A program made the translations under genes and the position numbers. Below the pieces are notes generated by a model. The model saw only the letters and a program-made list of their open reading frames with translations, was not told the DNA's origin and ran no database searches. A stretch of 64,000 nucleotides of DNA from an uncultured Lachnoclostridium sp. (GTDB lineage: Bacteria; Bacillota; Clostridia; Lachnospirales; Lachnospiraceae), in assembly GCA_930986645.1 (NCBI GenBank), contig CAKNJS010000007.1:1-64000 (forward strand). Reading direction: 5' to 3'. This document shows, piece by piece, positions 2,384 to 31,509 of this stretch (positions are counted from its first letter, which is position 1; every line of letters begins with the position of its first letter).

Positions 2384-2430
2384 CAACCAAGGATATACTT
2401 AGGTGCGGAGAATGGAGATGAGTTTAGTAC

Positions 2431-3557: not shown

Positions 3558-3579
3558 AATAAATATACTGGGTATGTGC

Positions 3580-3626: not shown

Positions 3627-3673
3627 GAGATAAATTAAGTTAATTATTGTTACATAATTATTACAAAACTATA

Positions 3674-3701
3674 TTGACAAATAGGTTCAGTGTGATATAC
3701 T
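3674..3701 (+). promoter_or_regulatory. Promoter of the fatty-acid synthesis cluster
   Basis: TTGACA (3674-3679), 16-bp spacer, TATACT (3696-3701). This is a near-consensus sigma-A promoter 57 bases upstream of fabH; the start point would fall inside the FabT-like operator. Confidence 0.75.
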
Positions 3702-3740
3702 TTGAGAGTCAAAGTATTTAAAACTCAAAGTAAATTTGAG
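3699..3740 (+). promoter_or_regulatory. Two FabT-like operator palindromes
   Basis: Site 1 is ACTTTGAGAGTCAAAGT (3699-3715), overlapping the -10 box. Site 2 is CTCAAAGTAAATTTGAG (3724-3740), in the leader. Site 1 matches the TTTGA-N3-TCAAA core of the streptococcal/lactococcal FabT operator. A MarR/FabT-like gene closes this cluster at 14576, so autogenous repression of the cluster is the natural inference. Confidence 0.7.
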
Positions 3741-3757
3741 AGATTTGGAGAAAAGAA

Positions 3758-4729: not shown

Positions 4730-4834
4730 TCACCGGCATCAGCCGGATTACAATACATTCTCTCCGCATGGCGGAGCGATATAATATCCCCCTGAAGGGA
4801 AAATATTTTCAAGAAAGAAAGGAAAAGAGAAACC

Positions 4835-5059
4835 ATGTTAGAGAAGATCAAAGAAATCGTAGCAGACTCATTAAATGCAGACGTTGACACACTTACAGAG
4901 GAGACATCTTTCAAAGATGACCTTGGAGCTGATTCCTTAGACCTGTTTGAAATGGTAATGGCATTTGAGGAAGAGTTCGATGTAGAGATCCCGTCTGAGG
5001 ATCTGGAGCAGATCAATACGATCGGCGATGTAGTAAAATATCTTGAGGCACACAAATAA
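4835..5059 (+). CDS. acpP: Acyl carrier protein
   Basis: 74 residues, strongly acidic, with the phosphopantetheine attachment motif GADSLD (Ser34). It carries growing acyl chains as thioesters for all enzymes of the cluster. It has a strong AAAGGAAAAGAG site. The 105-base gap after fabH contains two small GC-rich hairpins (TAATCaCCGGC..GCCGGATTA and CTCCGC-AT-GGCGGAG), which could tune its expected high expression by mRNA processing. Confidence 0.96.
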   Translation: MLEKIKEIVADSLNADVDTLTEETSFKDDLGADSLDLFEMVMAFEEEFDVEIPSEDLEQINTIGDVVKYLEAHK

Positions 5060-17960: not shown

Positions 17961-18818
17961 TCAGCGTTCCCAGCGTCCGGATGCGCCGCATGGAAGTACC
18001 AGCCCTGATTCGGTTACCGGCAGGCCGATTTCCTGTGATTCCACATGCCCGTTCCATGGTTTTAATTCAGTGGCTATCATATAAGTTAACACTGCCGGAG
18101 CAAGCCCGGTTGTATATGAATTGACGAGAAAGAACAGTGCGTCCTTTGAAAGGATTTTTGTACATAATTTAATGAGCGGGTGAATCATATCTTCGATTTT
18201 CCAGATTTCACCTTTCGGACCCCTCCCGTATGACGGAGGATCCATGATGATGGCGTCGTAAGTGTTTCCGCGCCGTATTTCGCGTTCTACGAATTTCACA
18301 CAGTCATCCACAAGCCAGCGGACAGGGGCGTCTTTCAGCCCGGAAGACACAGCGTTTTCCTTTGCCCATGTCACCATCCCCTTTGATGCATCTACGTGTG
18401 TGACCTGAGCGCCTGCAGCAGCTGCGGCAAGAGTAGCGCCGCCTGTGTAGGCAAACAGGTTCAGCACTTTGACTGGACGGCCTGCACGGCGGATTTTCTC
18501 AGAAAACCAGTCCCAGTTTGTTGCCTGTTCGGGAAAGAGGCCGGTATGCTTAAAACTGAACGGCTTCAGATTAAAAGTAAGAGAGCCGTAATGGATCTGC
18601 CACTGTTTGGGCAGGCTGAAGAATTCCCATTCACCGCCGCCTTTTTTGCTGCGGTGGTAATGTCCGTTCATGTGTTTCCATCCTCTGGCATTTCTCGGGG
18701 TATCCCAGATAACCTGGGGATCCGGCCGTACAAGGATATAATCTCCCCAGCGTTCCAGTTTCTCTCCTTTTGAACAGTCAATGACTTCATAATCTTTCCA
18801 GTTGTCAGCTATCCACAT
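17961..18818 (-). CDS. Class I SAM-dependent methyltransferase, RlmI/RlmK-like
   Basis: 285 residues. The SAM-binding motif VLNLFAYTGGATLAAAAAGA lies near residues 118-137, and the catalytic MDPPSYGRG near residue 213 is typical of the PF10672 group of rRNA/oxygenase-like methyltransferases. The PUA domain of RlmI is absent, so the target, probably RNA, is uncertain. Start chosen at the ATG with AGAAAGGAATC upstream. Confidence 0.82.
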   Translation of the reverse strand: MWIADNWKDYEVIDCSKGEKLERWGDYILVRPDPQVIWDTPRNARGWKHMNGHYHRSKKGGGEWEFFSLPKQWQIHYGSLTFNLKPFSFKHTGLFPEQATNWDWFSEKIRRAGRPVKVLNLFAYTGGATLAAAAAGAQVTHVDASKGMVTWAKENAVSSGLKDAPVRWLVDDCVKFVEREIRRGNTYDAIIMDPPSYGRGPKGEIWKIEDMIHPLIKLCTKILSKDALFFLVNSYTTGLAPAVLTYMIATELKPWNGHVESQEIGLPVTESGLVLPCGASGRWER

Positions 18819-19157
18819 AAAATGATTCCTTTCTGAAGCGGCTTCCGCATAAACGGACAGCCAGAGCCATAATATCTGTACCGGCGTAATGCTGCCGGCG
18901 CAGACTGTAATCCTCAGTGATTATAGCATGACAGTTTACAAAGAGCAATGTGAAAACAGAAAAGAGCCAATAGAAATGCAGATGAAGAGGAATACGTACG
19001 AAAGCAAATAAAAGCCACAGAATGTATGTTGGATTGTGTGGAAAAAACAGTGATCTGAAGTGAAAATGCCGTTGATTCGCGTTGACTTAATATATGCTAT
19101 GAAGTATAATTAATTTAATTGCAGGATTAGATAAATCCAGATTGGAGTGAGGTTGAA
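18819..19157. other. Divergent intergenic region before the BMC locus
   Basis: About 340 bases between the minus-strand methyltransferase and the first BMC gene. It contains the near-consensus promoter at 19082-19110 and, at 19031-19041, an 11-base word GGATTGTGTGG that recurs in the second BMC promoter at 20021-20031. I see no gene in it. Confidence 0.5.
19082..19110 (+). promoter_or_regulatory. Promoter 1 of the BMC locus
   Basis: TTGACT (19082-19087), 17-bp spacer, TATAAT (19105-19110), 47 bases before the EutS/PduU-like gene. Confidence 0.75.
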
Positions 19158-19520
19158 ATGGTTCAGGAACATAAGCCGGAACGTATCGTACAGGAACTTG
19201 TTCCCGGCAAAGAAATTACCATCGCCCACCTGATCGCAAGTCCCGATATTACGCTTTATGAGAAGCTCGGTCTTGATCCGAGGGTAGAATACAGCAAGTC
19301 CGCGATCGGCGTGTTGACAATCAGCCCGGCGGAGACGGCTATCATTGCCGGAGATATTGCTATTAAAGCAGCAGGTATTGAGCTTGGATTTGTGGACAGG
19401 TTCAGCGGCACACTGATCGTGACCGGTACGATCTCGGAGACAGAGGCGGCAATCCGGGCAGTCCTCGAATATGTGAAGGATAAGATGGGCTTTTCCGTAT
19501 GCGAGATAACGAGGACGTAA
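19158..19520 (+). CDS. BMC shell protein, EutS/PduU-type
   Basis: 120 residues, a circularly permuted BMC domain: the order begins with the segment (RIVQELVPGKEITIAHLI) that forms the small beta-barrel cap in PduU/EutS, followed by LGVLTISPAETAIIAGDIA and ending in FSVCEITRT. Hexamers of this type sit in the shell facets. It heads the BMC locus with its own promoter and is followed after four bases by the EutP-like gene. Confidence 0.88.
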   Translation: MVQEHKPERIVQELVPGKEITIAHLIASPDITLYEKLGLDPRVEYSKSAIGVLTISPAETAIIAGDIAIKAAGIELGFVDRFSGTLIVTGTISETEAAIRAVLEYVKDKMGFSVCEITRT

Positions 19521-19524
19521 TATA

Positions 19525-19989
19525 ATGAAGAAAATAGTACTGGTAGGCAGGAGCGAATGCGGAAAGACTACACTGACGCAGGCTCTGAAGGGTGAAACAA
19601 TACACTATCACAAGACCCAGTACGTGAACAATTTCGATGTGATCATCGATACTCCCGGTGAATATGCGCAGACCAAGCATCTGGGATACGCACTGGCGCT
19701 GTATACATATGAGGCAGATGTAGTGGGAATGCTTTTGTCGGCAACAGAACCCTATTCCCTATATCCGCCATGCAGTACCTCAATGTGCAATCGGGAAGTG
19801 ATCGGTATCGTCACCAAGATCCACGATGAACGCGCGGATGTTGCGAGGGCGGAAAGGTGGCTTCGTCTTGCAGGATGCAGGAAAATTTTCTATGTGGATT
19901 CCAAGAGTTATGAAGGAATTCCCGAGATACTGGAGTACCTGAAAGAAGACGGAGACGTGCTTCCGTGGGAAAAAGATGAAAACCAATAA
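19525..19989 (+). CDS. EutP/PduV-type small GTPase-like protein
   Basis: 154 residues. P-loop GRSECGKTTL near residue 8, switch/G3 DTPGEY near residue 43 and a degenerate G4 (VTKIHD). Family members associate with microcompartments; PduV has been linked to BMC localisation and EutP to a kinase-like activity. ACGAGGACG precedes the start. Paired with the EutS-like gene as in pdu and eut operons. Confidence 0.86.
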   Translation: MKKIVLVGRSECGKTTLTQALKGETIHYHKTQYVNNFDVIIDTPGEYAQTKHLGYALALYTYEADVVGMLLSATEPYSLYPPCSTSMCNREVIGIVTKIHDERADVARAERWLRLAGCRKIFYVDSKSYEGIPEILEYLKEDGDVLPWEKDENQ

Positions 19990-20008
19990 AAACCAACATT
20001 GAAATGTG

Positions 20009-20037
20009 TTGACGACTGTGGGATTGTGTGGTAATAT
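20009..20037 (+). promoter_or_regulatory. Promoter 2 of the BMC locus
   Basis: TTGACG (20009-20014), 17-bp spacer, TAATAT (20032-20037), upstream of the aldolase gene. The spacer contains GGATTGTGTGG, also found upstream of promoter 1. Confidence 0.75.
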
Positions 20038-20053
20038 TCAAAAAAAAACAACG

Positions 20054-20070
20054 CAAAACAAAATGTTTTG
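20054..20070 (+). promoter_or_regulatory. Candidate operator palindrome upstream of the aldolase gene
   Basis: CAAAACA-AAA-TGTTTTG is a perfect 7-bp inverted repeat just downstream of the predicted start point and upstream of the AAGGAGG site. Its position suits a repressor; the DeoR-family protein at 28586 is the obvious candidate. Confidence 0.5.
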
Positions 20071-20092
20071 TAGGATCCAAGGAGGAGAAGAG

Positions 20093-20908
20093 ATGCAAAA
20101 CGAATACGAAATCAAAAAAGAAATGTGTGAAATCGGTAAACGAGTTTACAATCGTGGAATGGTTGCTGCAAACGATGGTAACTTTTCTGTAAAACTCAAT
20201 GACCATGAGTTTTTATGTACACCGACAGGTGTCAGCAAAGGGTTCATGACACCGGAGTACATCTGCAAAGTTGACGAGAATGGTAATGTCCTTCAGGCAA
20301 ACAAAGGATTCAGACCTTCATCAGAGATCAAGATGCATATGCGTGTATATCAGAAAAGACCGGATGTAAAATCAGTTGTACATGCTCACCCGCTGTACGC
20401 TACAACATTCGCGATCGCAGGCATTCCGCTGACACAGCCGATCATGCCTGAGGCAGTTATCGCACTTGGATGCGTACCGATCGCTCCGTACGGAACACCG
20501 TCTACAATGGAGATTCCGGATGCAGTTGAGCCTTATCTTCAGCACTTTGATGCAGTTCTCCTTGAGAACCACGGCGCGCTGACATATTCTGACAGCCTTC
20601 TTGCTGCATACATGAAGATGGAATCTGTAGAGTTCTATGCACAGCTGTTATGGCAGACAATGCAGATCGGCGGACCGCAGGAGTTCAGCAAAGAGCAGGT
20701 TGAGAGACTGTACGAGATCAGAAGACAGATGGGACTTCCGGGCAAACATCCGGCTAACCTCTGCCCGAACGCACAGGCAGGCAAACCGAGCTGCCATTCA
20801 TGCAGCGGTTCATGCGGAAGTGCAGCAGCTTCTTCTACAGCTGGAAACACAGACGCTGATCTGGTTGCTTCTATTACAAAGAAAGTTATGGAACAGCTTG
20901 GCATGTAG
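20093..20908 (+). CDS. Class II aldolase (fuculose/rhamnulose-1-phosphate type) with encapsulation peptide
   Basis: 271 residues from ATG 20093 (AAGGAGG upstream); the longer open frame starts inside the promoter and is rejected. Aldolase class II/adducin domain over residues 1-205: metal-binding His in VHAHPLYAT and in ENHGALTYS, N-terminal NDGNFSVK. FucA/RhaD-type enzymes cleave the sugar-1-phosphate to DHAP and L-lactaldehyde. A Cys-rich linker (SCHSCSGSCGSAAAS) leads to a C-terminal amphipathic helix ADLVASITKKVMEQLGM, a typical BMC encapsulation peptide. It is therefore probably the entry enzyme of the compartment. The exact sugar is not determinable. Confidence 0.88.
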   Translation: MQNEYEIKKEMCEIGKRVYNRGMVAANDGNFSVKLNDHEFLCTPTGVSKGFMTPEYICKVDENGNVLQANKGFRPSSEIKMHMRVYQKRPDVKSVVHAHPLYATTFAIAGIPLTQPIMPEAVIALGCVPIAPYGTPSTMEIPDAVEPYLQHFDAVLLENHGALTYSDSLLAAYMKMESVEFYAQLLWQTMQIGGPQEFSKEQVERLYEIRRQMGLPGKHPANLCPNAQAGKPSCHSCSGSCGSAAASSTAGNTDADLVASITKKVMEQLGM

Positions 20909-20919
20909 GAGTTCAGCTT

Positions 20920-21441
20920 ATGAATGAACAGGATATTACCAATGCGGTAAAATCCGTGTTGGATCAGATGAAAGGGACAGTACCCGCCGCAGAGAAGCCG
21001 CATGTCTGCAAATGCAAGAAACATCAGATGACACTGGCTCTTGCAAATGCCCTGATTGAAAAGGTAAAGGCAAAAGCTTCAGAGATGGGGGTGGACGTTG
21101 TCATTGCTGTCTCGGACAAGGCCGGAAGGCCGGTAGCCATCCAGTGTATGGACGGCGCATACATAGCTAGTTTCGACATTGCATTAAATAAGACTTATAC
21201 ATCCGCAAGCCTGAAAATGTCTACTGCACAGCTGGCAGAGTTGAGCCAGCCCGGGCAGGATCTTTACGGAATCCAGTTTACGAATAACGGAAAGATCGTG
21301 ATCTTCGGAGGAGGCGAGGTTCTCGAATATGACGGACGTATCGTCGGAGCTCTTGGAGTGAGCGGAGGCTCGGCGGCGGAAGATACAGCTATAGCGGCTT
21401 ACGGGAAAGAAGTTTTTAAGGAGGTATTAGAGTGTCTGTAA
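20920..21441 (+). CDS. GlcG/HbpS-family protein (PduO C-terminal-like) with encapsulation peptide
   Basis: 173 residues. Residues 2-19 (NEQDITNAVKSVLDQMKG) form an amphipathic encapsulation-type helix, then a linker with CKCKK, then a GlcG/HbpS domain (LALANALIEKVKAKASEMGVDVVIAVSDKAG...GALGVSGGSAAEDTAIA). In Salmonella PduO this domain follows a B12 adenosyltransferase; here that enzyme is absent and the domain stands alone. Some members bind heme. Function in the compartment is unknown. Its end overlaps the next gene by 10 bases. Confidence 0.82.
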   Translation: MNEQDITNAVKSVLDQMKGTVPAAEKPHVCKCKKHQMTLALANALIEKVKAKASEMGVDVVIAVSDKAGRPVAIQCMDGAYIASFDIALNKTYTSASLKMSTAQLAELSQPGQDLYGIQFTNNGKIVIFGGGEVLEYDGRIVGALGVSGGSAAEDTAIAAYGKEVFKEVLECL

Positions 21442-22820
21442 ATGAACAGATGGTTCAGGACATCGTACAGGAAGTTATGGCGAAGATGCAGATTGCATCA
21501 GATGTCTCAGGAGACAGAGGTGTCTTTAAAGATATGAACGAGGCAATCGAGGCTGCTAAGAAGTCTCAGAAGATTGTAGCCAGAATGTCACTGGACCACA
21601 GAGAAAAAGTTATCTCCAACATCCGCAAAAAGATTAAGGAGAATGCAGAAATTCTTGCACGCATGGGCGTACAGGAAACCGGCATGGGAAATGTCGGACA
21701 TAAGATCCTGAAACATCAGCTCGTTGCTGAGAAAACTCCGGGAACTGAGGATATCACAACGACAGCATGGTCAGGGGACAGAGGACTTACTCTCATTGAG
21801 ATGGGGCCTTTCGGAGTTATCGGCGCGATCACACCGTGTACGAACCCCAGTGAGACAGTTCTCTGCAATACGATCGGAATGTTTGCAGCAGGAAATACAG
21901 TTGTATTTAACCCGCATCCGGCGGCAATAAAGACATCAATCTACGCGATAAATCTTGTGAACGAGGCATCCGTAGAGGCCGGCGGTCCGGACAACATTGC
22001 ATGCACAGTAGAGCATCCGACGCTTGAGACAAGCAATATCATGATGAAACATCCGGCAATCCAGCTTATCGCTGCAACTGGCGGTCCGGGCGTTGTTACT
22101 GCAGTTCTTTCTTCCGGAAGAAGAGGAATCGGAGCAGGAGCAGGAAACCCGCCGGCTGTTGTCGATGAAACAGCAGATCTGAGAAAGGCAGCTGAAGATA
22201 TCGTAAACGGATGTACATTTGACAACAACCTTCCGTGTATTGCTGAAAAAGAGATCGTTGCAGTTGATTCAGTGGTAGATGAACTGATGAACTATATGAT
22301 CACAGAGCAGGGCTGCTATCTGGCTTCCAAAGAGGAGCAGGACGCACTTACCGCAGTTGTTCTTAAAGATGGAAAACTGAACAGAAAATGTGTGGGACGT
22401 GATGCGAAGACTCTGCTCAGCATGATCGGTGTTACAGTTCCGGACAATATCAGATGTATTACGTTTGAAGGTCCGAAGGAGCATCCGCTGATCACAACGG
22501 AGCTTATGATGCCGATCCTCGGTGTGGTAAGGGCAAAAGACTTTGACGATGCTGTTGAGCAGGCTGTATGGCTTGAACATGGAAACCGCCATTCTGCACA
22601 TATCCACTCAAAGAACATCGACAATATCACAAAATATGCGAAAGCAATTGATACAGCAATCCTCGTAAAGAATGGACCGTCTTATGCGGCACTTGGATTC
22701 GGCGGCGAAGGATTCTGTACATTTACAATTGCCAGCAGAACAGGCGAGGGCCTGACAAGCGCAAGCACATTCACAAAGAAAAGACGCTGCGTAATGACCG
22801 ACAGTCTGTGCATACGTTAA
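21432..22820 (+). CDS. CoA-acylating aldehyde dehydrogenase, PduP/EutE-type
   Basis: 462 residues with a GTG start, chosen because AAGGAGG lies seven bases upstream. N-terminal encapsulation helix NEQMVQDIVQEVMAKM, then the ALDH domain; the catalytic cysteine is in TFDNNLPCIAEKEIV. It converts an aldehyde, CoA and NAD to acyl-CoA and NADH inside the shell. In this locus the aldehyde expected from the aldolase is lactaldehyde, giving lactoyl-CoA; propionaldehyde would need a dehydratase that is not here. Confidence 0.9.
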   Translation: MSVNEQMVQDIVQEVMAKMQIASDVSGDRGVFKDMNEAIEAAKKSQKIVARMSLDHREKVISNIRKKIKENAEILARMGVQETGMGNVGHKILKHQLVAEKTPGTEDITTTAWSGDRGLTLIEMGPFGVIGAITPCTNPSETVLCNTIGMFAAGNTVVFNPHPAAIKTSIYAINLVNEASVEAGGPDNIACTVEHPTLETSNIMMKHPAIQLIAATGGPGVVTAVLSSGRRGIGAGAGNPPAVVDETADLRKAAEDIVNGCTFDNNLPCIAEKEIVAVDSVVDELMNYMITEQGCYLASKEEQDALTAVVLKDGKLNRKCVGRDAKTLLSMIGVTVPDNIRCITFEGPKEHPLITTELMMPILGVVRAKDFDDAVEQAVWLEHGNRHSAHIHSKNIDNITKYAKAIDTAILVKNGPSYAALGFGGEGFCTFTIASRTGEGLTSASTFTKKRRCVMTDSLCIR

Positions 22821-22935
22821 GCCGTGCGCTTACGGCGTGAAATATGTACGCAGGCTTGCCTGCAGATACATATTTTACGGCGGAAGCATATGGCGTATGC
22901 CGACAGCGAGAACAGAAAAAATAGTAGCAGGAGGT
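22820..22935 (+). repeat. Structured intercistronic element, copy 2 (BMC operon)
   Basis: Hairpins in order: GCCGT..ACGGC; AAATATGTA-C-GCAGG-CTTG-CCTGC-AGA-TACATATTT; and GCATATGGCGTATGC. The order, the GCAGGCTTGYCTGC tip and the GCATATGGCG tail match 9535-9720, while the lower stem bases differ in a compensating way. Confidence 0.55.
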
Positions 22936-22942
22936 AAATAAC

Positions 22943-24151
22943 ATGGAAATGAATTCCGCTAATGTGGAAGCCGTCGTAAAACAGGTACTCGAGAGTATGC
23001 TCGACAAGAAGATCCCTTCACAGTCAGCACCGGCAGCAAGCCAGGCTATCCCGAAGACAGCTCATGTAGCTATGCTGACATCACTTGGGCATTATGATAT
23101 TAAAGAATTTCCGATTCCGGAAGTGGGAGACGGAGATATTCTTGTAAAAGTAGAAGGATGCGGTATCTGCGGTACAGACGCACACGAATTCAAAAAAGAC
23201 CCGTTCGGCCTGATCCCGGTGGCACTCGGACATGAGGGAACCGGTGAGATCGTCAAGATGGGTAAAAATGTAAAAGTTGACAGTGCCGGCAAACCGTTGA
23301 AGGTCGGCGACAAAGTTGTTACATGTATGATCTTCAAAGATGACCCGGAGATCGAGATGTTCGACCTGAACAAGAAGAATGTAGGAGGCGCAGATGTTTA
23401 CGGACTTCTTCCGGATGATGACATTCATCTGAACGGATGGTTTTCGGACTACATCTTTATCCGTGAAGGATCTTCCGTATTCAATGTAAGCGATCTCGAC
23501 CTCGACTCAAGAATCCTCATCGAGCCATGTGCAGTTCTCGTACATGCAGTAGAGAGAGCTAAGACAACAGGCATCTTAAGATTCAACAGCAGAGTTGTTG
23601 TACAGGGATGCGGACCGATCGGTCTGATCTGTATCGCAGTTCTCCGCACACTTGGTGTTGAAAATATCGTCGCAGTAGACGGTAATCCGCAGAGACTTGA
23701 GTTTGCTAAGAAAATGGGTGCTGACAAGTCTGTAAACTTTATGGAATACAAAGGAATCGAGGCCCTTTCAGGAGCAGTGAAAGACGCATTTGGCGGACAC
23801 CTTGCAGATTTCGCATTCCAGTGTACCGGATCACCGGCAGCACATTCGAACATCTACAAATTTATCCGCAACGGCGGCGGACTTTGCGAGCTTGGATTCT
23901 TTATCAACGGCGGAGATGCTACGATCAATCCGCATTTTGACCTCTGCTCCAAAGAGATCAATCTGGTCGGCTCATGGGTATATACACTGAGAGATTATGC
24001 AACGACCTTTGATTTCCTGAAGAGAGCACAGGCAATCGGGCTTCCGATGAAGGAACTGATCACTCACAGATTCCCGCTGGAGGAGATCAATGAGGCTCAT
24101 GAAACAAATCTTGCACAGAAAGGCCTTAAGATCGCTATCGTTAATAAATAA
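22943..24151 (+). CDS. Zinc-type (MDR) alcohol dehydrogenase with encapsulation peptide
   Basis: 402 residues. N-terminal helix NSANVEAVVKQVLESMLDKK (residues 4-23) plus an Ala/Pro linker resembles an encapsulation peptide. The catalytic zinc site is visible (GCGICGTDAHE, GHEGTGE, IEPCAVLVHA) and a Rossmann motif VVQGCGPIGLI near residue 220. The usual four-cysteine structural zinc lobe is missing: only one Cys is in that region. Relatives occur in aldolase-containing BMC loci. Probably interconverts an aldehyde or ketone and alcohol with NAD(H), perhaps lactaldehyde/propanediol; inference. Confidence 0.85.
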   Translation: MEMNSANVEAVVKQVLESMLDKKIPSQSAPAASQAIPKTAHVAMLTSLGHYDIKEFPIPEVGDGDILVKVEGCGICGTDAHEFKKDPFGLIPVALGHEGTGEIVKMGKNVKVDSAGKPLKVGDKVVTCMIFKDDPEIEMFDLNKKNVGGADVYGLLPDDDIHLNGWFSDYIFIREGSSVFNVSDLDLDSRILIEPCAVLVHAVERAKTTGILRFNSRVVVQGCGPIGLICIAVLRTLGVENIVAVDGNPQRLEFAKKMGADKSVNFMEYKGIEALSGAVKDAFGGHLADFAFQCTGSPAAHSNIYKFIRNGGGLCELGFFINGGDATINPHFDLCSKEINLVGSWVYTLRDYATTFDFLKRAQAIGLPMKELITHRFPLEEINEAHETNLAQKGLKIAIVNK

Positions 24152-24162
24152 GGTGGATCATT

Positions 24163-24516
24163 ATGGGAGAAGCAGTAGGTATGTTGGAGGTCTTCGGGCT
24201 GGCAACGGCATTTGCGGCGGCTGACGCCGGATGCAAGGCCGGCGATGTATGGCTCGAGAAATTCGACAAAAATAAACCGGCGAATGCAGATGAATTACCT
24301 GTACCGCTGATCGTCATGGTCAAATTCCGTGGAAGCGTATCCGATGTCACGGCAGCGCTTGAAGCGGCAAAGGCGAGAGCCGAAGAGCTTGCGGGCGTTG
24401 TAAACGAATATAAGATCGCAAGACCGACAGAGGATACAGAGAAGATGCTGAAGCTTACCGGATTAGATAAAGGTGAACCACATATCATCAATGAAAAAGA
24501 TATTGAAGAGATTTAG
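24163..24516 (+). CDS. BMC-H shell protein with C-terminal extension
   Basis: 117 residues. One BMC domain (AVGMLEVFGLATAFAAADAGCKAGDVWLEKF) with a longer loop (DKNKPANADELPVPL) than PduA-like proteins and a 25-residue acidic tail. Hexamer-forming facet protein by family. First of four adjacent BMC-H genes. Confidence 0.87.
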   Translation: MGEAVGMLEVFGLATAFAAADAGCKAGDVWLEKFDKNKPANADELPVPLIVMVKFRGSVSDVTAALEAAKARAEELAGVVNEYKIARPTEDTEKMLKLTGLDKGEPHIINEKDIEEI

Positions 24517-24529
24517 GAGGAAATGAACA

Positions 24530-24811
24530 ATGGCAATGGCACAGCAGGCATTAGGAATGGTTGAAACAAGAGGACTTACAGCAGCGATCGAGGCTGCAGA
24601 TGCAATGACAAAGGCAGCAGAGGTTACTCTGATCGGAACAGAGAAGATCGGAAGCGGACTCGTAACAGTTATGGTACGCGGAGACGTAGGAGCTGTTAAA
24701 GCTGCAGTAGAGACAGGCGCAGACGCAGCAGGAAGACTTGGAGAGCTGGTCGCTACACACGTAATCCCGAGACCGCACAACGATGTTGAGAAGATCCTTC
24801 CTACTGTATAG
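24530..24811 (+). CDS. BMC-H shell protein, PduA/PduJ-type
   Basis: 93 residues, a canonical [62 protein letters not shown]. The pore loop is EKIGSGLV. Strong TAGGAGG site. Nearly identical in its core to the product at 25158, suggesting duplication. Expected to be a major shell component. Confidence 0.93.
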
Positions 24812-24859
24812 TCATACTGCTTGCGGGAGGTCCTTACATTAAAGCAAAGGAGCAGTCTC

Positions 24860-25144
24860 ATGGGAAACGCGTATGGATTTTTTGAGATCCCGAGTGTTAC
24901 AGCGGCGGTAGTCGCAGTTGATATTATGTGCAAGACGGCAGATGTGCAGTTTGTCACATGGGAGAAAAAATTGGGCGGACGATTGGTTACGATCATCATC
25001 CGCGGCGATGTATCCGCTGTAAAACAGGCTGTCGAAGCTGCTGAAGCAGGAGGAATTAAAAAGCCTGTGTGCGCTGTTGTGATCCCGAACCCCCATGAGG
25101 AGGTACTCAAGATCGTTAACGGCAGTGCTAACAGAGTAAATTAG
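24860..25144 (+). CDS. BMC-H shell protein, divergent
   Basis: 94 residues from ATG 24860, which follows AAAGGAG; an upstream in-frame start lies in the previous gene's trailer. BMC domain [58 protein letters not shown]. The pore-region loop (EKKLGGRLV) and the FFEIPSV start differ from the two PduA-like paralogues, so it may form a distinct pore, as in EutK/PduK-like or CcmK2-like minor shell proteins. Confidence 0.87.
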
Positions 25145-25157
25145 GAGGCAGTTTAAG

Positions 25158-25562
25158 ATGGCAGAAGAAAAGAAAACTACAACAGCCAAAGCGCCGGCAA
25201 AAACTGTACGAAGAGTAAGAAAGACGGCGCAGAAGGCGGAAACGGTTCAGGAACAACCTATAATTCAGAAGGAGGAACGAAAAATGTCACAGGAAGCATT
25301 AGGAATGGTTGAAACAAGAGGTCTGGTAGCATCAATTGAAGCAGCAGATACAATGTTAAAAGCTGCAAACGTAGTTCTGGTCGGAACAGAGAAGATCGGA
25401 AGCGGACTTGTAACAGTTATGGTACGCGGTGATGTAGGAGCTGTTAAATCAGCAGTTGAGTCCGGAGCAGAGGCTGCAGGAAGACTTGGCGAATTAGTAG
25501 CTACACACGTAATCCCGAGACCGCACAGCGATGTGGAGAAGATTCTTCCGGTTCTTAAATAA
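25158..25562 (+). CDS. BMC-H shell protein with basic N-terminal extension and internal start
   Basis: 134 residues from ATG 25158 (TTAGGAGG upstream). Residues 1-42 are Lys/Arg/Ala-rich ([19 protein letters not shown]...), followed by a PduA/PduJ-type BMC domain (residues 43-134) almost identical in its core to 24530. An in-frame ATG at 25284 has its own strong site, AGAAGGAGG with 8 bases spacing, so a 92-residue canonical BMC-H can be made from the same gene. Two products from one gene is the likely reading. The basic tail resembles that of the protein at 15179. Confidence 0.88.
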
Positions 25563-25613
25563 TCTGGGATTATTGAAAAGTCAGTAATCACGCATTATCG
25601 ACGAATCAACGAT

Positions 25614-25644
25614 GGGAACTGATCAGGAAACTGTATCAGTTCCC
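25614..25644 (+). repeat. Hairpin before pduL
   Basis: GGGAACTGAT and ATCAGTTCCC form a perfect 10-bp stem in the 106-base gap before pduL, without a proper T-run. It could protect or process the upstream shell-gene mRNA. Confidence 0.5.
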
Positions 25645-25668
25645 TGAAAATACAAGGAGAATTGAGAT

Positions 25669-26319
25669 ATGGATAACAGTAATGTGGCATTAATTACAAA
25701 GCTGGTTCTGGAAGCAGTTGAAAAACAGAAATCATCCGATGATGCAGGATATCTTGTACCCATCGGAGTGTCCGCAAGACATATCCATCTTACACAGGAA
25801 CACGTTGAAGTGCTGTTCGGAAAAGGCTATCAGCTCACGAAGAAAAAAGAGCTGATGGGCGGACAGTTCGCATCAAATGAGACCGTGACGATCGTGGGAA
25901 TCAAACTCAGAGCAATCGAGAATGTCAGAGTTTTAGGACCTGTCAGAAAACAGACACAGGTTGAGATTTCTGCGACAGACGCGATTAAACTCGGCGTCAA
26001 AGCTCCGATCAGAGAGTCGGGAAATGTTGCAGGAAGCGCACCGATCGCTGTAGTCGGACCGAAAGGTGCTCTTTACCTTAAAGAAGGATGCATCATTGCA
26101 ATGAGACATATACATATGTCACCGAGGGATGCCATGGCAGCCGGTGTGCATGACGGAGATATCGTATCGGTAAAAGCGGACAATGAAAGAGGAACAATAT
26201 TCAACCACGTAAAGATTCGTGTAGACGACAGCTTCACACTTGAGATGCACATCGATACGGATGAAGCAAATGCTGCCAAGATCGCAACCGGTGATACGGT
26301 GAGGATTATATCATGCTGA
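25669..26319 (+). CDS. pduL: Phosphate acyltransferase PduL with encapsulation peptide
   Basis: 216 residues. N-terminal encapsulation helix NVALITKLVLEAVEKQK (residues 4-20), then two PduL beta-barrel domains with zinc-binding histidines in GVSARHIHLT and MRHIHMSP and in LEMHIDTDEAN. PduL exchanges CoA for phosphate, giving acyl-phosphate and regenerating CoA inside the shell. An acyl-phosphate kinase gene is not in this locus, so ATP is made by a kinase encoded elsewhere. Its stop overlaps the BMC-P gene by 7 bases. Confidence 0.92.
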   Translation: MDNSNVALITKLVLEAVEKQKSSDDAGYLVPIGVSARHIHLTQEHVEVLFGKGYQLTKKKELMGGQFASNETVTIVGIKLRAIENVRVLGPVRKQTQVEISATDAIKLGVKAPIRESGNVAGSAPIAVVGPKGALYLKEGCIIAMRHIHMSPRDAMAAGVHDGDIVSVKADNERGTIFNHVKIRVDDSFTLEMHIDTDEANAAKIATGDTVRIISC

Positions 26320-26579
26320 TAGGGAAAGTTGTCGGAAGTGTTGTTTCAACACGCAAATGTGAAAATTTGGTCGGAAATAAATTTATGATCGTGGATATAC
26401 TGGAGCATATGCATTCCGGCGCAGACCAGCTTATCGCGATCGATAAGATCGGAGCGGGAATCGGCGAATATGTGCTTGTGGCACAGGGCAGCGCGGCAAG
26501 AATCGGAAGCGGTATGCCGGATGCGCCGATCGACGCGGCGATTGTGGGAATTATTGACGACGGATCAGGACTGGAGTAG
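26313..26579 (+). CDS. eutN: BMC-P pentameric vertex protein, EutN/CcmL-type
   Basis: 88 residues: MLIGKVVGSVVSTRKCENLVGNKF, VAQGSAARIGSGM and PIDAAIVGIIDD are the conserved EutN/CcmL segments. Pentamers cap the vertices of the shell. One copy in the locus. Overlaps pduL by 7 bases. Confidence 0.92.
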   Translation: MLIGKVVGSVVSTRKCENLVGNKFMIVDILEHMHSGADQLIAIDKIGAGIGEYVLVAQGSAARIGSGMPDAPIDAAIVGIIDDGSGLE

Positions 26580-26586
26580 TGGAATT

Positions 26587-27909
26587 ATGGATATGAAAGA
26601 ATTAAGCAGCATATTGCAGCAGAACGGTATCGTTGGTGCAGGTGGTGCAGGATTTCCGACATATGCAAAGCTGGATGAGCGTGCAGATACGATCATCCTG
26701 AACTGTGCGGAATGTGAACCGCTCCTGAGGCTGCACAGACAGCTTCTTGAAAAGCATGCTGCCGAAATCGCAGATATGTTCCATACGATTGCTGAGACCG
26801 TTGGAGCAAAAGAAGCAATTATCGGTATTAAGAAAGCATACAAGAAAACGATCGAAGCAGTAAATGCTGTTATTGACAAATATCCGGAAATGAGACTTGG
26901 ATTGCTGGATGAAGTCTATCCTGCCGGCGATGAAGTAGTTCTTATCTACGAAGTAACAGGAAAAGTTGTACGCCCCGGCGGACTTCCGATCGAGAGCGGC
27001 GTTGCAGTATTCAATGTAGAGACTGTATATAATGCATACAGAGCTCTGCATGAAAATACACCTGTAGAAGATAAGCTGGTGTCTGTTGTTGCAGAGGTAG
27101 AGAAGCCGATTACAGTTCGTGTTCCTATCGGTACGCCTCTTGACGAGGTTGTAGCGCTTGCAGGACACGTCACAACACCGAATCCGGTGTATTTTGTGGG
27201 CGGTCCTATGATGGGCAACATCGGAACAGGCGCCCAGCCGGTGACAAAGACGACGAATGCAATTCTCGTACTGCCGGAAGATCATTATATTGTTCAGAAG
27301 AAATTAAAGAAAAATTCAATCGATATGAAACGTGCAGCAGCATGCTGCTGTCAGTGTACGATGTGTACGGATCTGTGCCCGAGACATCTGCTCGGACATC
27401 CGATCGAGCCACACGCATTTATGCTTGCGGCGACTTGTAAGAATGTACAGGAGCCGAACATCTTCCTCAACACGATGTTCTGTTCTTCCTGTGGTGTCTG
27501 TGAGCTGTACTCCTGTTTTCAGGGACTTTCTCCGAGAAGCCTTATGGCTGAATACAAAGCCGGCCTGAGGGCAAATGGAATCCGGGCTCCCAAGGTTGAA
27601 GCAAAGCCGGTAGGACCGGAGAGAGAATACAGAAAAGTTCCGATGGAAAGACTGATGGCAAGAATTGATCTGACGAAATATAATAGAGAGGCGCCCCTCG
27701 ATGAATCTGAGGTAGCCGTAAAGAAGGTTAAGATCATGATGAGCCAGCATATCGGTGCACCTGCATCACCGGTCGTTAAGAAAGGCGACAAGGTGACAAA
27801 AGGACAGATGATTGCTGAACCCGGTAAAGGATTAAGCGTAGGCATCCATGCATCAGTTACAGGTACAGTAACCGAAGTAAATGACAAATATGTTATCATA
27901 GAAACTTAG
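26587..27909 (+). CDS. pduS: PduS/RnfC-like flavo-iron-sulfur protein
   Basis: 440 residues from ATG 26587; the longer open frame runs through eutN and is rejected. N-terminal RnfC-like NADH/FMN domain (GIVGAGGAGFPTYAKL, NCAECEPLL), SLBB region, then two [4Fe-4S] motifs (CCCQCTMCTDLCP and CSSCGVCELYSC) near residues 255-320, and a C-terminal barrel-sandwich domain. In Salmonella PduS is a cobalamin reductase; here there is no B12 enzyme, so it more likely passes electrons between NADH and the Fe-S cluster of the adjacent PduT-like shell protein. That role is inference. Confidence 0.88.
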   Translation: MDMKELSSILQQNGIVGAGGAGFPTYAKLDERADTIILNCAECEPLLRLHRQLLEKHAAEIADMFHTIAETVGAKEAIIGIKKAYKKTIEAVNAVIDKYPEMRLGLLDEVYPAGDEVVLIYEVTGKVVRPGGLPIESGVAVFNVETVYNAYRALHENTPVEDKLVSVVAEVEKPITVRVPIGTPLDEVVALAGHVTTPNPVYFVGGPMMGNIGTGAQPVTKTTNAILVLPEDHYIVQKKLKKNSIDMKRAAACCCQCTMCTDLCPRHLLGHPIEPHAFMLAATCKNVQEPNIFLNTMFCSSCGVCELYSCFQGLSPRSLMAEYKAGLRANGIRAPKVEAKPVGPEREYRKVPMERLMARIDLTKYNREAPLDESEVAVKKVKIMMSQHIGAPASPVVKKGDKVTKGQMIAEPGKGLSVGIHASVTGTVTEVNDKYVIIET

Positions 27910-27925
27910 GAAGGACGTGCAGGCA

Positions 27926-28474
27926 ATGAGTAAGGCAATTGGAATGGTAGAATATAAGACTGTTTCAGCAGGCATTACCGCAACAGATGCAATGGTAAAG
28001 ACCTCTGAAGTCAGTATAATCGAAGCTCAGACAGTATGTCCGGGTAAGTATATTGCGATCATTACAGGTGACTTAAGTGCCGTAAAAGCAGCGGTAGACA
28101 ATGCTAAAGAGCTGCACGGCTTCCACCTGATCGACAGTTTTGTACTCGGAAACCCGCATGAGTCTATTTTCCCGGCGATCTATGGAGCATCTAAGATTGA
28201 AGATGTATCAGCGCTCGGTATTTTTGAGACATATGATGCTGCATCAATTATTGTAGCGGCCGATGAGGCGGCTAAGACAGCAATTGTTGATCTGATCGAG
28301 CTGCGTATCGCAAGAGGTATGTGCGGAAAATCATATATGCTGCTGACAGGCGAAGTTGCTGCCGTAGAGGCGGCGATCGAACGGGCGAAAGAAGCAGTGA
28401 AAGACAGAGGAATGTTCCTCGATGCGTCTGTTATTGCTCATCCCGATGCCCAGATTCGCGACGCAATTTTATAA
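27926..28474 (+). CDS. pduT: BMC-T tandem-domain shell protein, PduT-type
   Basis: 182 residues from ATG 27926 (TAGGAAGG upstream); a GTG nine bases earlier abuts that site. Two BMC domains in tandem (residues 4-88 and 92-180), forming pseudohexameric trimers. Cys38 lies in the pore loop (QTVCPGKY), the position that in Salmonella PduT ligates a [4Fe-4S] cluster at the trimer axis. Directly after pduS, supporting an electron path across the shell. Confidence 0.9.
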   Translation: MSKAIGMVEYKTVSAGITATDAMVKTSEVSIIEAQTVCPGKYIAIITGDLSAVKAAVDNAKELHGFHLIDSFVLGNPHESIFPAIYGASKIEDVSALGIFETYDAASIIVAADEAAKTAIVDLIELRIARGMCGKSYMLLTGEVAAVEAAIERAKEAVKDRGMFLDASVIAHPDAQIRDAIL

Positions 28475-28585
28475 CAGCTAAGAACAGACAGGCTCTCCCC
28501 TGCTATAACTGCAGTTTTACGGTATACGCCGGACAAGTGCAGAGCGGTCGGAGGGTCTGTTTTGGCATAAGCAGGAGGCAGTGAG

Positions 28586-29356
28586 ATGCTTGCAATAGAA
28601 AGACGTAATGAGATCCTGGAAAAACTGCAGACAGACAGAAGAGTTGTTGTGAGCGAGTTAAGCCAGCTGTATGATGTCTCTGAAGAGACGATCCGAAGAG
28701 ACCTTGAGAAGCTGGTAAATGACGGTTATGCCATTAAAAGTTACGGCGGTGCCGTTATTAATGAGAACGTTAATATTGAACTGCCATTTAATATTAGAAA
28801 AAATCGGAATATTCTAGGTAAACAGCACATAGCGGAATTGGTTGCCGGGCTGGTAAATGACGGCGACAGCATTATGCTGGACGCCAGTACCACTGCAGTG
28901 TATATTGCAAAAGCCCTGCAGGAGAAGGAACTTAAAAATCTGACCATCATTACCAATTCCATCGAGATTATTATCGAGCTGTTTGATGTGCAGGACTGGA
29001 CAATTCTGTCAACCGGCGGTGCATCGCGGGAGGGATCATTTGCACTCGTGGGACCGCAGACAGACAGAATGCTCAGCAACTACCATGTTGATAAAGCGAT
29101 TATCTCTTGTAAAGGCCTTGATGTATCGGCAGGATTTACGGATTCAGATGATCTGCATGCCAATAATAAAAGAACAATGCTCAAGTCGGCAAAAGACAGG
29201 ATCCTTGCGATTGACAGCAGTAAATTTGACCGGATAGCATTTACAGAGATAGGAACTCTGGATGATCTCACAGTGGTGATAACTGATGAAAAACCAGAGG
29301 AAAAATGGCTCAAGGTATTTAAAGATTCGGGAGTTCAGTGTATCTATCCCCGATAA
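28586..29356 (+). CDS. DeoR-family transcriptional repressor of the BMC locus
   Basis: 256 residues. DeoR helix-turn-helix at the N terminus (RRNEILEKLQTDRRVVVSELSQLYDVSEETIRRDLEKL) and a sugar-phosphate-isomerase-like effector domain with DASTTAVYIAKAL and SKFDRIAFTEIGTLDDL. DeoR members usually respond to phosphorylated sugars, which fits fuculose- or rhamnulose-1-phosphate as inducer. It lies inside the BMC locus between pduT and pduQ. The palindrome at 20054 is a candidate site. Confidence 0.9.
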   Translation: MLAIERRNEILEKLQTDRRVVVSELSQLYDVSEETIRRDLEKLVNDGYAIKSYGGAVINENVNIELPFNIRKNRNILGKQHIAELVAGLVNDGDSIMLDASTTAVYIAKALQEKELKNLTIITNSIEIIIELFDVQDWTILSTGGASREGSFALVGPQTDRMLSNYHVDKAIISCKGLDVSAGFTDSDDLHANNKRTMLKSAKDRILAIDSSKFDRIAFTEIGTLDDLTVVITDEKPEEKWLKVFKDSGVQCIYPR

Positions 29357-29400
29357 GGGATAGGAACGATGTATGAATACCGGATAAAGAGAGGACAGCT

Positions 29401-30546
29401 ATGAAAAGCTTTGATATTAAAACAAAAATTTATTTTGGAGATCAGGCACTTGACCGTCTTGCAGAGATCCCCTATCAGAAAGTTCTGGTTGTGACTGATC
29501 CGTTTATTGCTCAGGGCGAGCTGATCAAACTGGTCACAGAGCCGCTTAAAAAGGGCAATAAACAGTTCGAGATTTTTAAAGATGTTGTGCCTGATCCGCC
29601 GATCGAGAAGATCAGCGAAGGCGTAAAGAAGATGCTTGAATACAGACCGGATGCTATTGTTGCAGTAGGAGGAGGCTCTGCTATCGACTCATCCAAATCA
29701 ATCAGAGAATTTGCCCTGCGCGTAGACCATTACGCAGAAGTGGGGCTGATTGCGATACCGACAACAAGCGGGACAGGGTCCGAAGTAACCTCTTTTGCGG
29801 TGGTTACGGATCCGGCAGCAAAGGTAAAGTATCCGCTGGTATCTTATTCCATGATGCCTGATGAAGCAATTCTGGACGCCGAACTGGTGAAGAGCGTGCC
29901 TCCGTCAGTGACGGCTGATACAGGAATGGATGTGTTTACACATGCTCTGGAGGCGTGTGTCAGCATAAACCGCAGTGATTTCTCTAATGCACTGGCAGAA
30001 AAAGCAATTGAAATCTGCGGGGTATTCCTGCTCAGGGCATTTCTGGACGGAAATGATATGCATGCAAGACAGAAAATGCATTCGGCATCATGCCTTGCCG
30101 GACTTGCATTTAATACAGCATCACTCGGACTGAACCACGGGATGGCTCATCAGCTTGGGGCAACGTTCCATATTCCGCATGGACGTGCCAATGCTATGCT
30201 TCTTCCGCATATTATAGAGTTCAACAGTGATATTAACAAGCACAGTAAGAGCCGCAAAGAGTATCTTCCGGCAGTGAAGAGATACTCCACAGTAGCTCAG
30301 ATACTGGGGTTAAGCAGTTATAATAAGATCATGACAGTGAGATCCCTTGTGAACTGGGTGCAGTTTATGTTAAAGGAAATGGATATTCCGTTGTCCATCT
30401 CCCAGATGGGTACGATATCGGAAGAAGAGTATTTCGGGGCGGTTGACCGTATGGCGGACGCAGCCCTTGAAGACGCATGTACAGCCACAAACCCGAGAGT
30501 GCCGACAAAGAATGATGTAATAAGGATATATAAAAATCTCTGGTAG
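29401..30546 (+). CDS. pduQ: Iron-containing alcohol dehydrogenase, PduQ-type
   Basis: 381 residues, group III metal-dependent ADH. NAD-binding GGGSAIDSSKSI near residue 94, TTSGTGSEVT near 120, and metal ligands in HALEACVS, LNHGMAHQLGATFHIPHG. In BMCs it reduces the aldehyde to the alcohol and regenerates NAD for the aldehyde dehydrogenase. With lactaldehyde the product would be 1,2-propanediol. No clear encapsulation peptide is visible. Last gene before a strong terminator. Confidence 0.9.
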   Translation: MKSFDIKTKIYFGDQALDRLAEIPYQKVLVVTDPFIAQGELIKLVTEPLKKGNKQFEIFKDVVPDPPIEKISEGVKKMLEYRPDAIVAVGGGSAIDSSKSIREFALRVDHYAEVGLIAIPTTSGTGSEVTSFAVVTDPAAKVKYPLVSYSMMPDEAILDAELVKSVPPSVTADTGMDVFTHALEACVSINRSDFSNALAEKAIEICGVFLLRAFLDGNDMHARQKMHSASCLAGLAFNTASLGLNHGMAHQLGATFHIPHGRANAMLLPHIIEFNSDINKHSKSRKEYLPAVKRYSTVAQILGLSSYNKIMTVRSLVNWVQFMLKEMDIPLSISQMGTISEEEYFGAVDRMADAALEDACTATNPRVPTKNDVIRIYKNLW

Positions 30547-30575
30547 AGATAAGGATTTTCAAATAAGTAAAAAAT

Positions 30576-30638
30576 TTCCGCCGGGAGATATGTATTGTCA
30601 GCGTACACAATACATATCTTCTGGCGGACGTTTTTTTC
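30576..30638 (+). terminator. Terminator of the BMC locus
   Basis: TCCGCCGGGAGATATGTATTGT pairs with its near-perfect complement around a CAGCGTAC loop and is followed by seven Ts. Confidence 0.88.
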
Positions 30639-30735
30639 TGCCAAATACGATCTGCAAAACCTTTCATGAGCTGTAACTGTTTTCTCACCTTACTGTATGC
30701 TATCATGAAACCATACTGCAAGGGAGGTGCTGAAA

Positions 30736-31509
30736 ATGAATACAATTCTTGAAATTGACAGCTTAAAAAAATATTACGGGAAGCCGGGTAATCAGACGAA
30801 AGCTCTGAACGGAATCACATTTCAGGTGATGGAAGGAGAATTCCTCGGGATTATGGGAAGCAGCGGTTCAGGGAAATCGACGCTGCTAAACTGCATTGCC
30901 ACGGTGATACAGCCGAGCAGCGGCAGGATCGTGATGAGGGGAACGCAGATCCAGTCACTGAAAGGAAAAAAGCTTGCACAGTACAGAGGAAGGGAGATCG
31001 GTTATCTGTTTCAGAATTTTGAGCTGATCGATAATCTGACCGGAAGGGAAAACATTATGCTTCCAATGTCTCTTCACAATGTGCCGGACAAAGAGAGCAG
31101 AGACAGACTGACACGTCTGGCATCTTATCTGGAGATTACAGACGTGCTTGATAAGTTTCCGTCACAGATGTCTGGAGGACAGAAACAGCGCGTTGCAGCG
31201 GCAAGGGCATTGATCATGGATCCGGGCATTATACTTGCGGACGAACCGACGGGAGCGCTTGATTCGAAAAACGCAAAAACACTTATGAAGAAGCTTTCAG
31301 GATTAAATGAGGAGGAAAATGCGACGATCCTTATGGTAACGCATGACTCTAATGCGGCAAGTTACTGCAAAAGGATCCTGTTCATTCAGGACGGACAGAT
31401 CTTTCATGAACTGAGGAGGGATACTCCGGAAGAAACACGACTGGAATTTTATGAGAGGATATTGAAAGTGATGTCACAGATGGGAGGAGGAAGCGCCAAT
31501 GTTCTTTGA
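30736..31509 (+). CDS. ABC transporter ATP-binding protein, BceA-like
   Basis: 257 residues from ATG 30736, eight bases after AGGGAGG. Walker A GSSGSGKST, Q-loop LFQNFELID, signature MSGGQKQRV, Walker B IILADEPTGALD. Belongs to the MacB/BceA group that partners large FtsX-type permeases. First gene of a four-gene module with permease, response regulator and sensor kinase, an arrangement typical of Bce detoxification modules for cell-wall-active peptide antibiotics such as bacitracin. Confidence 0.9.
   Translation: MNTILEIDSLKKYYGKPGNQTKALNGITFQVMEGEFLGIMGSSGSGKSTLLNCIATVIQPSSGRIVMRGTQIQSLKGKKLAQYRGREIGYLFQNFELIDNLTGRENIMLPMSLHNVPDKESRDRLTRLASYLEITDVLDKFPSQMSGGQKQRVAAARALIMDPGIILADEPTGALDSKNAKTLMKKLSGLNEEENATILMVTHDSNAASYCKRILFIQDGQIFHELRRDTPEETRLEFYERILKVMSQMGGGSANVL

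Follow-up and report, generated by a model that had tools for sequence, protein, structure and literature searches.

Which aldehyde is handled by a bacterial microcompartment (BMC) whose operon encodes a complete shell and a sugar-phosphate aldolase, and no signature dehydratase? This question is raised by the operon at 19158-30546 of the stretch analysed here (the window: 64,000 nucleotides, positions 1 to 64,000 of the forward strand of contig CAKNJS010000007.1, GenBank assembly GCA_930986645.1, from an uncultured Lachnoclostridium sp.). What a BMC does is commonly deduced from its locus and nothing else, and in this case such a deduction gives a doubtful product. An earlier note, made from the letters of the window, had taken the locus for a GRM5 (fucose/rhamnose) core without its dehydratase and lactaldehyde for the encapsulated end aldehyde. 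We consider it probable that the operon belongs to a GRM5-type fucose metabolosome from which the glycyl-radical enzyme (GRE) and its activase were deleted, and in which the dehydratase step would now be performed in trans by the B12-dependent enzyme PduCDE, encoded on another contig of the same genome.

The operon contig, C7, is part of a 2.70 Mb metagenome-assembled genome (MAG) of 95 contigs, which is 89% complete and close to Mediterraneibacter. Its aldolase is identical to one from an uncultured "Lachnoclostridium" MAG, and the next-closest aldolase loci mostly carry Mediterraneibacter names; the species names suggest poultry, and one locus is labelled as a chicken MAG. Searches against Pfam and NCBIfam revealed a complete aldolase-type BMC operon of 16 genes, all open and on the + strand (Table 1); the earlier note had correctly described them as intact and had counted 14. 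The matches to the BMC, PTAC and EutN families (E 3e-12 to 3e-77) rule out chance as their cause. The same searches bore out the full shell (EutS/PduU-like, four BMC-H, BMC-P and BMC-T) and the class II aldolase cargo that the note had described, and no operon gene matched the GRE, activase or PduCDE families, as it had also claimed. Non-BMC genes do flank both sides, namely SIR2, CmpB-type ABC and methyltransferase genes on the left and an ABC/FtsX transporter with a two-component system on the right. Targeting-type helices were recognised by eye on five cargo proteins, at the C-terminus of the aldolase and at the N-termini of the DUF336 protein, PduP, the Zn alcohol dehydrogenase (Zn-ADH) and PduL.

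A candidate diol dehydratase is encoded outside the shell operon. The search of the genome for PduC (PF02286) returned one full-length match (E=0) at C8:27525-29174, in the order pduC-pduD-pduE-pduG-pduH-adenosyltransferase, all in one direction. PduC, PduD, PduG and the adenosyltransferase exceed their NCBIfam cut-offs, while pduE and pduH are open frames named by position and conservation, not by family search. No BMC-domain gene was found on C8; in the genome such genes occur only on C7, C58 and C9 (BMC-P was not searched genome-wide), and C7 is therefore, within that search, the sole known shell with a full operon. The N-terminus of the C8 PduD ranked first when 173 other open reading frames (ORFs), from the window and from fetched stretches, were compared with a profile of the five operon helices, and its score (10.1) lies inside the leave-one-out range of those helices themselves (2.8-12.4). 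A like N-terminus was seen by eye in 22/22 readable PduD proteins of aldolase-bearing genomes from a sample of 397 genomes of the family.

The genome search for an encapsulated glycyl-radical diol dehydratase, which the earlier note had proposed as a check, found none. Only two GREs were detected, and both were rejected as the missing enzyme: the one on C8 is a 4-hydroxyproline dehydratase (HypD; 1471 bits, cut-off 1100) and the one on C3 a pyruvate formate-lyase (1172 bits, cut-off 994). The HypD gene and its activase, at about 17971-22400 of fetched stretches L017/L023, adjoin proC-like (by eye) and aminotransferase-like genes, and this cluster stands a few kb from the satellite pdu operon. 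A GRE within the roughly 11% of the MAG that was not assembled is very unlikely to be the true dehydratase. The completeness of 89% and the presence of GRE on another contig in several relatives would allow for it, yet the GREs that were found have other identities, and the sister clade described below likewise has no cis GRE and does have PduC (trans GRE was not searched for in the sisters).

The left end of the operon points to where the GRE would have been. In close relatives from the family sample, pduU, or the aldolase gene where pduU is missing, is immediately preceded by GRE and activase. When 18819-19157 was used as a blastn query, the best match covered window positions 19007-19110. 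In 5/13 relatives, sequence within 18960-19121 has a match on the same strand (E 6e-7 to 0.03) that lies 54-277 bp ahead of the GRE start, while weaker matches of the region (E 0.62) fall elsewhere; homology of the pre-pduU promoter was also seen in further loci beyond the 13. In five loci (L186, L187, L189, L191 and L196) the same promoter element stands directly before the aldolase gene, with pduU and eutP missing. At its front end the operon of the sister species L198 lacks these two genes as well, so that a stepwise trimming of this end can be seen across these six loci.

An empty site is also visible at the scale of 80 named loci, whose left boundary is recognisable by a divergent PHP-domain gene in all but 24. 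Of the seven queries searched for, the one that comes next after PHP is GRE in 32 loci, and in the other 24 it is pduU, eutP or the aldolase gene; in some loci, L202, L223, L254 and L256 among them, the PHP gene lies kilobases before GRE. In a tree of the aldolase, PduP, Zn-ADH and PduL, the window and 22 sister loci form one starred clade, which holds 19 of the 24 empty-site loci. Cis GRE is present in 0/19 rows of the clade with enough upstream sequence, the other four being too short to score, and is present in the nearest loci outside it (L200-L202). The window itself has another left flank, with no PHP gene. The operon (19001-30905) is 99.1% identical to that of L180, whose left flank is unrelated; L180 retains the usual left flank of the clade, and that of the window matches only L181 among the 22 clade loci. 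The mismatch at the left edge may reflect either an event in the lineage of the window, such as a rearrangement or relocation, or a misjoin during assembly of the MAG. Taken together, the empty site and the retained promoter support the note's proposal of a GRM5 core that lost its dehydratase, with GRE and activase apparently deleted between promoter and pduU. Because the tree is unrooted, we infer loss rather than gain from the spread of the GRE-first order.

If the dehydratase step was kept, the enzyme should be found with the shell in other genomes, whether or not it is encoded in cis. An aldolase match at E<=1e-30 occurs in 139 genomes of the family sample, and 78 with a long aldolase were kept by eye (best match at least 64% identical and extending to about residue 240 of the query, or further); G264, at 68% and up to residue 241, fits this rule and lies outside the 78, with no BMC gene around its aldolase and no dehydratase. 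The strict count is 72 genomes, as six had no verified BMC context: G221 and G323, which encode neither dehydratase and whose aldolase genes have no BMC neighbours, and G174, G365, G158 and G023, with GRE. When presence of GRE was defined as at least 63% identity to the GRE of L057 (weaker GREs, at 31-40%, being uncounted), 71/72 BMC-verified genomes encoded a GRE diol dehydratase or PduC: 48 GRE only, 15 both, 8 PduC only and 1 neither. The last, G314, is 84% complete, and its locus lies close to where the contig stops. Among the 23 genomes positive for PduC, two (G051 and G204) have it as a fragment at a contig end. By contrast, in 20 control genomes whose closely related aldolase (64-77% identical) lacks the C-terminal tag, BMC genes surround the aldolase in 0/20, and PduC or GRE occurs in 0/20. 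Tag, shell and dehydratase therefore travel together. Tagged and untagged aldolases form a natural pair of forms of one enzyme in this family. Of the untagged ones (L314-L333), 15/20 adjoin a rhamnulokinase-like, RhaA-like or DeoR gene, and two BMC loci (L072 in G241 and L094 in G251) have, just upstream of GRE, an additional aldolase that lacks the C-terminal extension.

PduC also appears to make up for an absent GRE. PduC is found in 8/9 genomes without GRE and in 15/63 with it (Fisher p=0.0003, uncorrected for relatedness). In the other 319 genomes of the sample, PduC passes the cut-off in 3, two of these genes adjoining a BMC-T gene, and GRE reaches E<=1e-150 in 7. In the stretches fetched around the 72 loci, GRE is present in 45, PduC in 4 and neither in 23 (window included); these 23 look like the published PVM-like loci, and for 22 of them a dehydratase is encoded elsewhere in the genome. 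The sister clade has PduC in 22/22 genomes searched, and near the aldolase in 0/22 fetched stretches, several of which end early at contig ends. One cultured relative, Mediterraneibacter catenae SW178 (L227), shows the same arrangement, with pduC in its genome; Lachnoclostridium sp. An76 (L198), another cultured member of the GRE-less clade, likewise encodes pduC. Across the named loci, where the PduC search covered 49 genomes of the 80 loci (L222 not among them), PduC occurs in 7/20 with cis GRE and 20/24 without it (window included), a difference (Fisher p=0.002) that is driven by one clade.

Some of these same data allow for another role of PduCDE, which would enter the shell mainly to process glycerol or 1,2-propanediol from outside, the sugar branch stopping at 1,2-propanediol or lactate. 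The retention of both GRE and PduC in 15/72 relatives, as if they had different jobs, and the higher score of PduC against glycerol dehydratase (see below) fit such a two-feed organelle. It is nevertheless improbable in our estimation: on the tree, seven changes are required for the PduC-only state; 8/9 genomes without GRE have PduC, as would be expected if PduC can replace GRE; and PduC is rare (3/319, two of the three beside a BMC-T gene) where the long aldolase is lacking.

Several observations weigh against service of the shell by the C8 dehydratase. The lead of PduD in the helix ranking is small (10.4 vs 9.6 for the next ORF), and when the hydrophobic moments of single helices were compared with those of shuffled versions, most were not significant (p 0.02-0.28 over six helices; PduD, 0.08). 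In PDB the C8 PduC is nearer to glycerol dehydratase, at 892 bits, with diol dehydratase at 826 bits. In the co-occurrence data, independent pairs run 4-6 one way and 0 the other, with a median p of 0.06. Outside the window's clade, L235, L244, L245 and L259 have neither cis GRE nor PduC (trans GRE was not searched for), and real dehydratase-free loci may exist, with these four as candidates; L235, L245 and L259 show the empty site after PHP. A further locus without PduC, L258, has too little upstream sequence. The earlier note had held that a co-regulated diol dehydratase encoded elsewhere with a matching helix would refute its model; such a tagged enzyme was found in the C8 PduCDE, and as to co-regulation a scan of the regions upstream of the C7, C8, C25, C9 and C58 genes for a shared operator gave nothing convincing. 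Rfam models, including the cobalamin riboswitches, had 0 matches at the gathering score in the window and in stretches L014, L015, L023 and L024.

The enzyme that follows the dehydratase bears on the identity of the aldehyde. PduP is identical at 344/436 aligned residues (79%) to PDB 4c3s, that is, Cphy1178, which has its best kcat/Km on propionaldehyde and negligible activity on glyceraldehyde (PMC4762007). In that paper isoleucines 421 and 433 were used to argue that lactaldehyde is not the natural substrate, and lactaldehyde is absent from its kinetics table. The window PduP has Leu421 and Ile433 at these positions, and of 147 PduP proteins 144 could be read at the pocket, where position 433 is Ile and position 421 either Ile or Leu in every one. 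By homology, then, PduP seems to favour propionaldehyde. Because of this likeness, the tagged PduCDE of C8 and the co-occurrence of shell and dehydratase, the end aldehyde is likely to be propionaldehyde and not lactaldehyde, contrary to what the earlier note had concluded.

In that note's model lactaldehyde is dismutated inside the shell, giving lactoyl-phosphate/lactate and 1,2-propanediol, and the C8 dehydratase would be a separate matter; the scenario is that of Erbilgin and Ravcheev, which has been published for PVM and which Ravcheev 2019 (PMC6620236) defended for Firmicutes. It would agree with an operon that has no dehydratase in cis, with the four candidate loci mentioned above and with two BMC-H genes on C58 that adjoin genes for a 2-hydroxyacid dehydrogenase and a HAD phosphatase. 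We regard it as unlikely, since it does not lead one to expect a dehydratase in 71/72 genomes with the BMC and 0/20 with the shell-free aldolase, PduC in all 22 sister-clade genomes, an operon-type helix on PduD or the hydrophobic PduP pocket, which is like that of a propionaldehyde enzyme.

The supply of the sugar phosphate could be followed to other contigs. The fucose/rhamnose isomerase and kinase genes that the note had suggested looking for are represented by a cluster on C25, which encodes an L-fucose isomerase that exceeds its cut-off, a rhamnulokinase-group FGGY kinase that stays below its own, an RbsD/FucU-type protein as mutarotase and a sugar-ABC permease and ATPase. RhaA was searched for in the genome and not found, and the operon aldolase has no further match there at E<=1e-30 beyond itself. 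On C9, a rhamnulokinase over cut-off lies 3.4 kb from a BMC-T gene (8423-9148 of L015, after an SDR gene). At 2120-4997 of the same stretch the kinase gene adjoins that of a 472-aa isomerase-like protein, where some relatives carry RhaA; this protein matches Fucose_iso_C weakly and has no counterpart in NCBIfam at 1e-20 or in PDB at 0.001. On C58 (7577-10231 of L014), two BMC-H genes are followed by those of the HAD phosphatase and the D-2-hydroxyacid dehydrogenase, and the dehydrogenase could be part of a lactate branch. The BMC-H pair is found again in L205, L207 and L209, where it lies upstream of GRE, and in L175 and L176, which are BMC-T loci. The C9 BMC-T and the C58 pair probably belong to the same shell as the C7 operon, as suggested by the relatives (G113, L205, L207, L209, L175 and L176) in which their homologues adjoin the aldolase operon or each other.

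We can now return to the favoured explanation, a fucose metabolosome served by PduCDE. L-fucose would enter through the C25 ABC transporter and be isomerised and phosphorylated, and the aldolase, presumably encapsulated, would split the product into dihydroxyacetone phosphate and lactaldehyde. The tagged Zn-ADH would act in the reducing direction and turn lactaldehyde into 1,2-propanediol. PduCDE, with its own reactivase and adenosyltransferase, would be brought into the shell by the PduD helix and form propionaldehyde, provided that the C7 and C8 operons are expressed jointly. PduP and then PduL would convert this aldehyde to propionyl-phosphate, and the NADH made by PduP would pay for the reduction of lactaldehyde. 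If this is true, fucose-derived propionate in some gut Lachnospiraceae would be tied to the supply of vitamin B12.

A broader idea can be put forward more tentatively, and we hold it to be somewhat less probable than its opposite: the aldolase metabolosome may be a chassis that takes either a GRE or a B12 diol dehydratase, in cis or in trans, with lineages going through a stage that has both enzymes before one of them is lost. The "corrin" proteins of GRM5 (PduS, DUF336/PduO-C and PduV) and the PVM-like class would both result from this, the B12 apparatus being kept because the shell is used, or was recently used, in B12 mode, and the "missing" dehydratase of PVM-like loci being encoded elsewhere. 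Such a chassis would suggest a possible answer to why B12-linked proteins (PduS and DUF336) sit in glycyl-radical BMC loci. The correlations with PduC across 71 family loci (DUF336, p 0.80; PduV/EutP, p 0.31; PduS, p 1.0; Fe alcohol dehydrogenase, Fe-ADH, p 0.09) give no support to the part in which the corrin proteins follow B12, and count against the simplest form of the idea.

The features of the operon are collected in Table 1. For the fourth BMC-H protein, an extension of about 42 Lys/Ala-rich residues (window 25158-25283) stands ahead of an EutM-like body, and a GGAGG-like site precedes the long start. Among the PDB matches of the aldolase, 21/35 bear the name fuculose-phosphate aldolase.

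Table 1. Promoter region and genes of the aldolase-type BMC operon, in window coordinates
Feature	Coordinates	Strand	Evidence and remarks
Promoter region TTGACT ... TATAAT	19001..19157	+	motifs by eye; precedes pduU; homologous to pre-GRE sequence of relatives
PduU/EutS-type BMC-H shell protein	19158..19520	+	PF00936; best NCBIfam NF012012 EutS 104 bits, below cut-off 123
EutP/PduV GTPase-like protein	19525..19989	+	PF10662; TIGR02528 over cut-off
Class II aldolase, fuculose/rhamnulose-phosphate type, C-terminal targeting helix DLVASITKKVMEQLG	20093..20908	+	PF00596; start set by comparison with relatives, ORF opens at 20006
DUF336/HbpS-like (PduO C-domain-like), N-terminal targeting helix	20920..21441	+	PF03928
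PduP, CoA-acylating aldehyde dehydrogenase, N-terminal targeting helix	21432..22820	+	PF00171; NF011927 660.9 bits, over cut-off
Zn alcohol dehydrogenase, N-terminal targeting helix	22943..24151	+	PF00107+PF08240
BMC-H shell protein 1	24163..24516	+	PF00936
BMC-H shell protein 2, EutM/PduA-like	24530..24811	+	PF00936
BMC-H shell protein 3	24860..25144	+	PF00936; ORF opens 24821, ATG 24860
BMC-H shell protein 4, Lys/Ala-rich N-terminal extension	25158..25562	+	PF00936 at residues 47-122
PduL phosphotransacylase, N-terminal targeting helix	25669..26319	+	PF06130; NF011652 over cut-off
BMC-P vertex protein	26313..26579	+	PF03319
PduS, RnfC-like flavo/FeS oxidoreductase	26587..27909	+	PF01512, PF13375, PF10531, PF13534
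PduT-like BMC-T shell protein	27917..28474	+	two PF00936 domains; TIGR02526 125 bits, below cut-off 250
DeoR-family regulator	28586..29356	+	PF08220, PF00455
Fe alcohol dehydrogenase, no visible targeting helix	29401..30546	+	PF00465, PF25137

In the PVM of Planctomycetes and Verrucomicrobia, according to what Erbilgin reportedly described in 2014, an aldolase forms lactaldehyde from fuculose or rhamnulose phosphate. The window operon shares this aldolase role. The PVM has another gene order, generally more BMC-P than BMC-H genes and a lactate/malate dehydrogenase in the alcohol dehydrogenase role (PMC4207490), whereas the window operon has one BMC-P gene against four BMC-H genes plus pduU, and both a Zn-ADH and an Fe-ADH.

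With the GRM5 fucosome of Clostridium phytofermentans and Roseburia inulinivorans (PMC3557285, PMC6325248) the operon shares its core (PduU, aldolase, PduP, Zn-ADH, the BMC-H set, PduL, BMC-P, PduS, PduT and DeoR), and its PduV and PduO-like genes are as in R. inulinivorans. Of the features by which GRM5 is recognised, it has the class II aldolase (PF00596) together with a Zn-ADH of the domain pair PF00107/PF08240, which is also that of the predicted GRM5 lactaldehyde reductase, as well as PduS and PduT, which occur in 57/57 GRM5 loci (PMC6325248). By contrast, the GRE diol dehydratase and its cognate activating enzyme are absent from the locus and were not found in the genome, which carries a B12 dehydratase operon in trans. 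As to the features of a B12-dependent PDU system, PduCDE, reactivase and adenosyltransferase are all in the genome and PduD bears the targeting helix, but the genes are located on C8, not inside the shell operon.

Dehydratase-free aldolase BMC loci are already published as PVM-like, and the window operon matches the description of such loci in Firmicutes (PMC4207490, PMC8217296, PMC8156839); what differs, by comparison with those descriptions, is that here a dehydratase was found elsewhere in the genome and the deletion was mapped. Axen 2014 (PMC4207490) suspected PVM-like loci of being fragments of GRM5, which fits the loss of GRE seen at this locus. Having found PduCD in only 10/13 genomes (co-localised in 6/13), Ravcheev 2019 (PMC6620236) argued for lactate as the end of the pathway in Firmicutes; our larger sample from a single family points in the opposite direction, and weakens the argument that Firmicutes fucose/rhamnose BMCs need no dehydratase. 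In Clostridium methylpentosum DSM 5476, from the same study, a B12 dehydratase is likewise tied to a fucose/rhamnose BMC, but its genes are co-localised there, while here they lie on another contig and the loss of GRE was traced against relatives.

A precedent for the swap of B12 and GRE dehydratases in one shell type is the exchange of signature enzymes between PDU1 and GRM4 (Sutter 2021, PMC8217296), which took place within the locus, whereas here a loss in cis appears to be covered by a satellite locus. The role of a corrin reductase in B12-independent BMCs has been raised as a question (PMC6325248). In open-licence titles and abstract openings we found no report of a GRE loss covered by a trans B12 dehydratase in this BMC type. 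The locus thus combines a GRM5-like function without GRE and activase, a PVM-like gene set and a PDU enzyme borrowed from outside, and for this reason it is classed as a GRM5-derived, B12-served aldolase metabolosome, in which the probable exchange of GRE for a B12 enzyme in trans would be the new element.

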